DNA from: Falsiroseomonas bella
GTDB lineage: Bacteria > Pseudomonadota > Alphaproteobacteria > Acetobacterales > Acetobacteraceae
DNA length: 64,000 nt
Direction of reading: 5' to 3'
Assembly: GCF_003173615.1 (NCBI RefSeq)
Contig: NZ_QGNA01000004.1
Location: 434,001 to 498,000, forward strand
Shown: piece by piece, positions 54,239 to 57,295 of the stretch
How the letters are laid out: the number at the start of each line of letters is the position of its first letter
Position numbering within the stretch: the first letter of the stretch is position 1
Notes under the pieces: model-generated
Database searches by the model: none
Told to the model about the DNA's origin: nothing
What the model saw: the letters and a program-made list of their open reading frames with translations, nothing else
Program-made: the position numbers and the translations under genes

Positions 54239-55897
54239 TCACTTCACGATGGCGACCCGCAGCGCATTGGTGGTGCCCGCGGTGCCGAAGGGGACGCCCG
54301 CGGTCACCACGACCTCATCGCCATGCTTCGCGAAACCTTCCTGCGCGGCGGCGCGGATGGCCTTGGCGACCATGTCGGTCATCGAGTGCAGCTCGGGCGC
54401 CATCACCGGGTGCACGCCCCAGATCACCGCCATGCGTCGTGCCGTCTGCTCGCTGGCGGTCAGGCCGAGGATCGGGCAGTCCGGCCGTTCCCGCGCGACC
54501 CGAAGCGTGGTGCTGCCGGTGGAGGTGAAGGTGGCGATCGCCTCGGCCTCGATGGTATGGGCCACCTGGCGGGCCGCGGCGGCGATCGCGTCGGCGGAGT
54601 TGCGCTGCGGCTCCGGCCGGTTCGCATCGGTCAGGGAGCGCCAGCCCGGATCCTGCTCCACGCGGGCGACGATGCGGTCCATCATGTTGACCGCCTCATA
54701 GGGATACTGCCCGGCCGCTGTCTCGGCGGAGAGCATCACCGCATCCGCGCCGTCGAAGACCGCGGTCGCAACGTCCGACGCCTCGGCGCGGGTGGGGGCG
54801 GGGGCGCCGATCATGCTCTCCAGCATCTGGGTCGCGACGACCACGGGCTTGCCGGCGGCGCGCGCGGTGCGGACGATGCGCTTCTGCATCAGCGGCACTT
54901 CCTCGGGCGGGCATTCCACGCCGAGGTCGCCGCGCGCCACCATCACGCAATCGGCCAGGCGGACGATCTCGTCGAGATTATCGATCGCCTGCGGCTTCTC
55001 CATCTTCACCATGATCCAGGCGCGGCCATCGGCGATGGCCTTCGCCTCCGCCACGTCCTCCGGCCGCTGCACGAAGCTGAGGCCGACATACTCGATCCCC
55101 TGCTCGAGCACGAAGTCGAGGTCGGCGCGGTCCTTCTCGGTCAGAGCGGGGATGGGCAGCACCACGTCGGGCACGTTCACGCCCTTGCGGTCCGAGAGCG
55201 GGCCGCCTGTGACCACCTCCGTCTCCAAGTGGTCCTCGCGCTGGCGCGTCACGCGCAGGCGCAGCTTGCCGTCGTCGAGCAGCAGCGTGGTGCCGATGCC
55301 GGCGGCGAGGATGATCTCGGGGTGCGGCAGCTGCACGCGCCGCACGTCGCCCGGCGTCGGCGAGAGATCGAGGCGGAAGGTCTGGCCGGCCTGCAGTTGC
55401 ACCCGCCCGCCCTGGAAACGGCCGACGCGAAGCTTCGGGCCCTGCACGTCGGCGAGGATGCCGATCGGCCGCTCCATCCGGCGCTCCAGCGCGCGGATGA
55501 TGGCGATGCGCTCCGCGTGGTCGGCGTGGGAGCCGTGCGAGAAGTTCAGCCGGAAGACATCCGCGCCGGCGCGGAACAGCCGCTCGATCACCTCGGGCGA
55601 GGAGGAGGCGGGGCCGAGGGTCGCGATGATCTTGGTGCGGCGCCGGCGGCGCAGCGGCATGCGCTGGGACAGGCGCAGCGGCGCGAGCTCGCGCTTGGGC
55701 GGCTCCGGCGGCTCGGCGCCGAGATCGGGCCGGACGCTCTCCGGCGCGACGCCGAGCGCGCGCGCGACCTCGGCCACGCGGTCGTCGGGCACGCGTTTCC
55801 ACTGGCTGACCGCGGCGGTGGAGATGCCGAGGGCCGTCGCGATGCGGGTCACGGCGCCGCGCTGGGCGAGGAGGGCTTCGAGATGCGGATCGCGCAT
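54239..55897 (-). CDS. pyk: Pyruvate kinase with N-terminal Cro/YdaS-like HTH domain
   Basis: A 552-residue fusion in one open frame. Residues 1-60 form an HTH of the Cro/YdaS type: ALLAQRGAVTRIATALGIS, then STAAVSQWKRVPDDR, ending with VAPESVRPDL, which is the characteristic family end. A Pro/Arg linker (61-84) follows. Residues 85-552 are a complete pyruvate kinase (KIIATLGPASSSPEVIERL, catalytic Lys in MVKMEKPQAIDNLDEI, metal Glu in the same segment, and ATQMLESMI). The usual enzyme has about 475 residues. A start at Met80 would give a normal enzyme, but no ribosome binding site precedes it, and the HTH part is clear and free of stops. The role of the HTH is unknown. Confidence 0.93.
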   Translation of the reverse strand: MRDPHLEALLAQRGAVTRIATALGISTAAVSQWKRVPDDRVAEVARALGVAPESVRPDLGAEPPEPPKRELAPLRLSQRMPLRRRRRTKIIATLGPASSSPEVIERLFRAGADVFRLNFSHGSHADHAERIAIIRALERRMERPIGILADVQGPKLRVGRFQGGRVQLQAGQTFRLDLSPTPGDVRRVQLPHPEIILAAGIGTTLLLDDGKLRLRVTRQREDHLETEVVTGGPLSDRKGVNVPDVVLPIPALTEKDRADLDFVLEQGIEYVGLSFVQRPEDVAEAKAIADGRAWIMVKMEKPQAIDNLDEIVRLADCVMVARGDLGVECPPEEVPLMQKRIVRTARAAGKPVVVATQMLESMIGAPAPTRAEASDVATAVFDGADAVMLSAETAAGQYPYEAVNMMDRIVARVEQDPGWRSLTDANRPEPQRNSADAIAAAARQVAHTIEAEAIATFTSTGSTTLRVARERPDCPILGLTASEQTARRMAVIWGVHPVMAPELHSMTDMVAKAIRAAAQEGFAKHGDEVVVTAGVPFGTAGTTNALRVAIVK

Positions 55898-56000
55898 GCG
55901 GCAAGCTTAGCGTTCTGAAGCCTCCAGCGCCAGCACGGCCTGCGAGCTTACTGTTGCTAAGTCGAGTTGTTGCGGCGCTCGCGGGGGATTGAGCCCGCGT

Positions 56001-56140: not shown

Positions 56141-57295
56141 ATGCGATTCAGGACGTCACTGATGGCCACCACGCTGCTGGTGCTGCCCGGGCTGGCCAGC
56201 GCGCAGGACCTGCTGCCGCGCTTCGGCGGCCCCGGTTCCGGCTTCTACATCGCGGGCGGCGCGGGGGTGAACTGGCTGGAGGACAGCGACCTGACGAGCC
56301 AGGGCGGCCTGCGCACCGCGCTCGGCGCGGCGGGGGTCGGGCAGAGCGGCAATGCCGATTTCGACACCGGCTGGGTGGGCGTGCTGAGCCTCGGCTACGC
56401 CTTTGGCAACGGGCTCCGGGCCGAGATCGAGGGCAACTACCGCGAGAACAGCATCAACGGCATCAACGGCTTCGCCGGCATCGCGGCGCCCCGGACGCAG
56501 AGCGGCGACGTCACGACCTGGGGCGTGATGGCCAATGTGTTCTACGACTTCGACCTCGGCTGGAACCTCGGCGGCGTCGGCATCGTGCCCTATATCGGCG
56601 GCGGCATCGGCTATGCCGTGAACGACTGGGACGGCGTGACGATCAGCTCGCCCGCAACCGGCCGGACGCTGCGGCTGGATGGCGACAACGGCAACTTCGC
56701 CTGGCAGGCCATGGTCGGCGCCGCCTTCCCGATCGCCTCCGTGCCCGGCCTCGCCTTCACGGCGGAGGGCCGCTACTTCGCCACGCTCTCCGACGACATC
56801 GACGCGACCTTCGTCTCGGCGACGGGCGCGACCACCACGCAGCGCGGCGCGGTGGAGGTGGACAACGGCAATTGGAGCGTGCTGGTCGGCCTGCGCTACA
56901 CCTTCGGCGCCGCGCCGCCGCCGCCGCCCGTCGCCGCACCCGCCCCGGCCGCGGCGCCGGCGCCGGCCCGGACCTACCTGGTGTTCTTCGACTGGGATCG
57001 CGCCAACCTGACCGAGCGCGCACGCCAGATCATCGCCGAGGCGGCGCAGGCCTCGACGCGCGTGCAGACCACGCGGATCGAGGTGGCGGGCCATGCCGAC
57101 CGGTCCGGCACGCCGCAATACAACCAGCGCCTGTCCGAGCGCCGCGCGCAGGCGGTGGCGGCGGAACTTGAGCGCCAGGGCGTGCCGCGTTCGGCGATGG
57201 TCATCCAGGCCTTCGGCGAGAGCCGCCCGCTGGTGCCCACCGCCGACGGCGTGCGCGAGCCGCAGAACCGGCGCGTGGAGATCGTCCTGCGCTGA
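56141..57295 (+). CDS. OmpA-like outer-membrane porin
   Basis: A 384-residue outer-membrane protein. A signal peptide (TSLMATTLLVLPGLASAQ) is followed by an eight-stranded-type barrel (about 25-255) that begins GSGFYIAGGAGVNWLED. A Pro/Ala hinge links it to a C-terminal OmpA peptidoglycan-binding domain (FFDWDRANLTERARQIIAEA, then AGHADRSGTPQYNQRLSERRA). It anchors the outer membrane to the cell wall. ATG 56141 has AAGGAG upstream; an open frame from 55967 has no such site. It is convergent with the patatin gene. Confidence 0.92.
   Translation: MRFRTSLMATTLLVLPGLASAQDLLPRFGGPGSGFYIAGGAGVNWLEDSDLTSQGGLRTALGAAGVGQSGNADFDTGWVGVLSLGYAFGNGLRAEIEGNYRENSINGINGFAGIAAPRTQSGDVTTWGVMANVFYDFDLGWNLGGVGIVPYIGGGIGYAVNDWDGVTISSPATGRTLRLDGDNGNFAWQAMVGAAFPIASVPGLAFTAEGRYFATLSDDIDATFVSATGATTTQRGAVEVDNGNWSVLVGLRYTFGAAPPPPPVAAPAPAAAPAPARTYLVFFDWDRANLTERARQIIAEAAQASTRVQTTRIEVAGHADRSGTPQYNQRLSERRAQAVAAELERQGVPRSAMVIQAFGESRPLVPTADGVREPQNRRVEIVLR

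Follow-up and report, generated by a model that had tools for sequence, protein, structure and literature searches.

The 64,000-nt stretch of DNA analyzed here (the window, to whose whole length all positions refer) spans positions 434,001 to 498,000 of Falsiroseomonas bella contig NZ_QGNA01000004.1 and carries a pyruvate kinase (PK) gene, pyk, whose product begins with a phage-Cro-like helix-turn-helix (HTH) domain. The open reading frame (ORF) occupies 55897..54239 on the minus strand, a strand assignment that was absent from an earlier first-pass annotation of the sequence and was established by reading the ORF; it starts with ATG and encodes 552 amino acids with no internal stop. Residues 1-60 (55718..55897, minus strand) form a P22-Cro-type HTH according to Pfam and the AlphaFold2 models, with the recognition helix at about residues 27-33; residues 61-83 (55649..55717, minus strand) are a linker, modeled mostly at low confidence; and residues 84-552 with the stop codon (54239..55648, minus strand) comprise the PK barrel and C-terminal domains, as delimited by the ORF, Pfam, and NCBIfam. 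The first-pass annotation had described an HTH and a complete PK in one frame, and Pfam bore this out for both sets of domains. PK (368 bits) and PK_C (131 bits) are full length and over their curated cutoffs, and NCBIfam PRK06247 pyruvate kinase scored 702.5 bits against a cutoff of 623. The description of the HTH as being of the Cro/YdaS type held for its first half: P22_Cro (PF14549) matches residues 11-41 at 35.3 bits, above the gathering cutoff of 30.2, whereas YdaS_toxin (PF15943), at 22.8 bits, falls short of its cutoff of 30. In the AlphaFold2 model, residues 1-60 fold into five helices with block-mean predicted local distance difference test (pLDDT) values of 85-93, residues 62-78 fall under 50, and the PK part is folded. 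In a profile search, the fusion was the sole PF00224 match in its own 5.94-Mb genome, which suggests that the PK part is an active enzyme; enzyme and DNA-binding-type domain share one chain, the combination that characterizes trigger enzymes.

Upstream of the ATG, on the minus strand, lie two palindromes that we regard as predicted operators. Operator 1 (op1; 55947..55961) is a perfect CTTA-N7-TAAG located 41 bp upstream of operator 2 (op2; 55906..55920), CTTC-N7-TAAG, and the latter overlaps a -10 box, TAAGCT (TANNNT; 55904..55909), separated from the ATG by 6 nt. CTGGCG (55928..55933), 18 bp from the -10 box, is a weakly matching -35 candidate, and no Shine-Dalgarno (SD) site precedes the ATG.

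The first-pass annotation had proposed searching Acetobacteraceae for the same architecture, and 70 fused genes under 13 genus labels were found, as the union of searches of 59 and 397 genomes. In the smaller search, 19 of 59 relatives, including all 15 genomes of the window's genus, matched the whole protein from residue 1 to the end; in the larger, 68 of 397 family genomes matched residues 1-140, from the HTH through the PK start, in one frame, and 312 matched PK without the HTH-to-PK span. Scanning 84,980 species by motif gave 110 matching stretches, of which 94 came from relatives, and the PK-start motif, by which a PK fusion was defined in this set, was in frame in all 80 named loci kept from the 94. 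Their titles include Roseomonas, Falsiroseomonas, Neoroseomonas, Belnapia, Siccirubricoccus, Roseococcus, and similar names, with some metagenome-assembled genomes under other labels; 27 new upstream regions from this set, added to those of the 70 fused genes, gave 97 distinct upstreams. Given this recurrence across relatives, the fusion is no chance event. A spread of the fusion through the class was rejected, since among the matches listed from 289 class genomes the F. bella genome alone matched from residue 1. No HTH was found in frame before PK in G643 (match from residue 45), G585 (from 22), or G050 (from 24), and the matches of the last two into the HTH columns run across a stop; class-wide rows beginning at residues 49-63 were left out of this inspection. 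A P22_Cro match was present in 33 of 240 class genomes in a profile search. For comparison, 37 unfused pyk loci were chosen, comprising the 11 that the 59-genome search gave and then 6 and 20 selected from the family search, a sample that is weighted toward genera near the fused genes and includes one locus (L029) with only 150 nt of upstream sequence.

Conservation of the recognition helix had also been proposed as a check, and AAVSQW (residues 28-33) proved to be invariant in all 70 fused genes, as were R2, D3, L6, R13, G14, I19, A20, L23, I25, P37, and R40. The ratio of nonsynonymous to synonymous differences (pN/pS), computed within the window's genus, comes to 0.209 over the HTH, 0.219 over PK, and 0.544 over the linker. 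The first-pass annotation had named free decay of the HTH beside a conserved kinase as an outcome that would tell against its view; the decay affects the linker and spares the HTH. Over all 70 genes the ratios are 0.47, 0.29, and 0.77, respectively, placing the HTH as looser than PK and tighter than the linker, at pS values (0.42-0.47) high enough to make saturation likely. One genus, g49 (L079, L086, L091, L093, and L097), keeps the fusion with an HTH that differs at residues 15-18.

The palindromes accompany the fusion. A perfect CTTA-N7-TAAG lies no more than 100 nt from the ATG in 63 of the 70 fused genes, and a site with at most one mismatch does so in 68, the most frequent starting positions being -64 and -23 from the ATG. 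No perfect site was found at any of the 37 unfused pyk loci, where two one-mismatch palindromes only were seen, at -207 (L025) and -121 (L123) from the PK core. Within 80 nt, 89 of the 97 distinct upstreams have a perfect palindrome, a count that never rose above 3 in 200 dinucleotide shuffles; CTTA-N7-TAAG is the commonest 4-base inverted repeat counted in these upstreams, and in the shuffles no repeat of any kind exceeded a count of 7. In the aligned promoters the half-sites are kept while the 7-bp spacer varies. The op1-to-op2 distance is 41 bp in 25 of the 70 fused genes and another value between 37 and 47 bp in 20, with one or both sites missing or shifted in the remaining 25. The evidence for predicted operators at the fusion's own promoter is strong at the level of sequence. 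The proposal that the protein binds DNA gains strong support on the same footing, because the operators occur with the fusion and the recognition helix is invariant.

Elsewhere in these genomes such sites are few. The F. bella genome has only two perfect CTTA-N7-TAAG sites, op1 and another next to a ROK gene, and pyk accounts for 25 of the 37 perfect sites in the 15 congeneric genomes, with at least one there in every genome. The tandem 41-bp arrangement occurs once each in 13 of the 15, always at pyk, with 0-1 mismatches, and was found nowhere else in the 15. The evidential weight is carried by the location of the sites and not by their genome-wide number. With perfect sites mostly, and the tandem site only, at pyk, a broad regulon was rejected, and the target of the fusion appears to be its own promoter.

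The sequence just before the ATG resembles a promoter in its architecture. TANNNT stands at -12..-7 in 70 of 80 aligned promoters, its TAAG shared with op2, although these are the 80 of 97 promoters with op2 at -23 and at most one mismatch, so that the half-site columns were selected; position -1 is C in 90% of them. The -35 element is weak: when five spacings are allowed, 21 of the 80 agree with TTGACA in at least four of six letters. When a single SD pattern and window are applied to all, an SD-like motif precedes 2 of 70 fused starts versus 22 of 31 unfused ATG starts (no ATG was found at 6 of the 37 unfused loci), and the pattern is more frequent at -110..-90 of the fused genes (10 of 70) than at their starts. 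Because the -10 box ends 6 nt before an ATG that lacks an SD site, the fusion mRNA is probably leaderless; leaderless mRNAs account for 7% in Methylorubrum extorquens (PMC9320726). A sigma-54 promoter between the operators, judged by eye, was rejected for unfit spacing. Further upstream, a glycerate-kinase C-terminal motif, whose family (DUF4147/MOFRL) was confirmed on one copy, occurs within 400 nt at 31 of the 37 unfused loci and at 41 of the 70 fused ones, but at none of the 15 in the window's genus. Since the gap between glycerate kinase and pyk is mostly short in the unfused loci inspected, pyk was probably once part of a glycerate-kinase operon, and the fusion probably arrived with its own promoter. 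In the window, pyk has its operator region in common with a divergently oriented OmpA-type outer-membrane gene (56141-57295, plus strand).

A second start may be retained within the linker, the fastest-evolving part of the protein. An SD sequence (AAGGA, AGGAG, GGAGG, or AAGGG) lies 4-13 nt before an in-frame start in the linker of 45 of the 70 fused genes versus 3.75% of 2800 random PK windows. The linker glycine codon is GGA in 37 of 62 genes versus 49 of 2413 PK glycines, a test in which the GGA/GGG codon was taken when there were several linker glycines, related genes were counted as independent, and the 8 of 70 genes lacking a linker glycine were excluded. The codon before this GGA ends in A in 34 of 37 although its residue varies (E, Q, A, T, P, or I), and for this reason nucleotides rather than amino acids seem to be kept. 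The internal SD and start are probably the old pyk start, and the 45 genes likely yield a predicted second, HTH-less PK beside the long form. The pair is found in 11 of 15 genomes of the window's genus; the window's gene, L005, L006, and L008 have neither a linker glycine nor an SD at this place, and by the same test no internal SD and start were found in genera g6, g12, g16, g53, g84, and g115. In a further genus, g17 (L021 and L103), an unfused pyk with a probable TTG start has a short in-frame stretch resembling the fusion linker, which may be a relic of HTH loss.

A phage cro gene is a likely source of the HTH. Komagataeibacter phage phiKM1, which infects the same bacterial family, encodes an unannotated small homologue at 47.5% identity that, by our reading, starts MRD; a palindrome ends 10 nt before its ATG, and its gene adjoins a divergent XRE repressor gene. 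This homologue scores 21.9 bits for P22_Cro, under the cutoff, and it and the fusion HTH alike match PHROG 35 (transcriptional repressor). In a midpoint-rooted tree of 107 PK domains, all 70 fused and 23 unfused sequences fall on one side of a branch with support of 100.

We consider it likely, from the sequence comparisons, that a phage-type cassette of cro and its promoter was captured and that an active PK now binds the predicted CTTA-N7-TAAG operators and autoregulates its own leaderless promoter. The cassette, consisting of operators, promoter, and HTH, would have been inserted before pyk in an ancestor of the Roseomonas group, so that pyk left the glycerate-kinase operon, and the HTH would bind at the new promoter and regulate pyk. 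The sign is most likely repression, because op2 covers the -10 box and the start. In many relatives the internal SD and start would also yield PK without the HTH. PK forms tetramers, and a tetramer with four HTHs would fit op1 and op2, which together offer four TAAG half-sites.

Several observations weigh against this reading and its predicted operators. The position of op1 would also fit activation. The window's own op2 carries a mismatch. Among the 70 fused genes, op1 is absent or displaced in 21 and op2 in 6 (2 of these genes lack both), and genus g49 keeps the fusion with a perfect site in none of five upstreams and a one-mismatch site in three; its altered HTH and lack of perfect sites could reflect co-evolution. 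There is no genome-wide excess of sites: perfect single sites number 1-4 per genome versus 3-30 for a reversed control, and the tandem pattern with 3 mismatches 0-1 versus 0-3. The PK tree requires at least eight fusion changes on a weak backbone, its strong branches forcing only two, and a clean one-gain history was not borne out. Comparison with P22 is double edged. P22 Cro and the fusion have the recognition helix AAVSQWK in common, and the P22 OR operators (TTAAG-N4-CTTAA, TTTAAG-N4-CTTTAA, and CTAAAG-N4-CTTTAG) agree in part with the fusion sites, a TAAG half-site being present in two of the three; but TAAG-N4-CTTA occurs in one operator, a one-sided TAAG in the second, and neither in the third, and CTTA-N7-TAAG is absent from all of them. 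The half-sites of the fusion are everted with a 7-bp spacer, whereas those of P22 are inverted with a 4-bp gap, and the geometry of the Cro dimer is not kept. Because the half-site order is opposite to that of P22, we infer that pairing would depend not on Cro dimer contacts but on the linker or on the tetrameric state of PK.

Other explanations account for parts of these data. The HTH could be a structural or oligomer-contact module that does not bind DNA, as is believed for the Cro-like domain of HppE, HEPD, and MPnS; chains of these proteins, whose HTH is not known to act on DNA, rank high when the HTH model is compared with known folds. An invariant recognition helix, together with perfect operators at 63 of 70 fused and 0 of 37 unfused genes, leaves this explanation with little probability. 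We attach equally little to the notion that another regulator binds the palindromes, with the HTH incidental: the everted half-site order unlike that of P22 and the retention of the HTH by g49 without perfect sites are in its favor, but none of the 37 unfused loci has a perfect site, including the 23 that lie among the fused genes in the PK tree.

That the fusion is instead a flux-responsive regulator of many genes, with pyk as one target, is improbable, if somewhat less so. Congeneric genomes offer 0-2 further perfect sites each, but F. bella itself has the single additional site beside the ROK gene and the tandem arrangement is confined to pyk in the 15 genomes. Least credible is an untranslated HTH stretch with the protein beginning near Met80, a start that the first-pass annotation had raised. 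Such a start gains something from the nearby internal SD and start in 45 of 70 fused genes, but the methionine of the MPLR motif is present in 6 of 70, the window's gene has no internal SD and none before Met80, its -10 box abuts the first ATG, and in the genus the HTH is as constrained as PK; Met80 is mostly excluded.

If cassette capture and autoregulation are correct, the last step of glycolysis would regulate itself at the DNA level within a single protein, and a central metabolic enzyme would have acquired a domesticated phage repressor as its control head. The predicted operators are directly testable, with fused and naturally unfused relatives as built-in controls. The first-pass annotation also proposed that the protein reports glycolytic flux. 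We offer only tentatively, as a rather doubtful extension, a flux-gated self-repressor in which PK tetramers would sense phosphoenolpyruvate or other effectors through allostery and so set the number of HTHs bridging the four half-sites, with mixed long (leaderless) and short subunits in many relatives; this would be a domesticated phage cro switch.

Related HTH domains were also seen on other proteins. Two relatives (L104:600-1379 and L105:680-1435) carry a Cro/YdaS HTH joined to a Nitrate_red_del (TorD-like) chaperone domain; elsewhere a YdaS-type HTH is fused to a CcdA antitoxin domain (L106:1650-2117, minus strand), and a YdaS/Cro HTH to NAD(P)H-hydrate epimerase/dehydratase (YjeF_N plus Carb_kinase; L107:823-2547, minus strand). 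Two TAAGCATAACTT repeats, one of them a full TAAG-N5-CTTA palindrome, directly precede the ATG of the last fusion.

Among the matches listed from open-licence PMC literature, in the excerpts available, no PK-HTH fusion was reported. The trypanosomatid protein PGKL (phosphoglycerate kinase-CNB-HTH) likewise combines a glycolytic-kinase domain with an HTH-like region, in a different enzyme and a different domain order; its kinase is reported to be dead and its DNA binding doubtful, and the excerpted text mentions no operators (PMC7729029), whereas the fusion has predicted ones. BzdR, in which an XRE HTH is followed by a shikimate-kinase-like domain, and whose evolution has been modeled by building an artificial chimera of an HTH and shikimate kinase, has the HTH-linker-kinase architecture in common with the fusion, but it is described in the excerpted source as lacking kinase activity and sensing benzoyl-CoA (PMC3602430); the PK of the fusion is complete and is the only PK match in its genome. 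The YdaS protein of CP-933P gives a footprint on the promoter of its own gene (PMC8630535). The predicted sites of the fusion likewise lie over its own promoter, but the HTH is here joined to a housekeeping enzyme and has no divergent CI-type partner at its locus. PutA is a trigger enzyme with its own DNA-binding domain. BirA, described as an HTH plus a biotin ligase (PMC7729029), is another. In these trigger enzymes the DNA-binding domain of the catalytic protein controls pathway genes, whereas the fusion places a phage-Cro head on a glycolytic kinase, apparently acts at its own promoter only, and is predicted to exist in long and short forms in many relatives.
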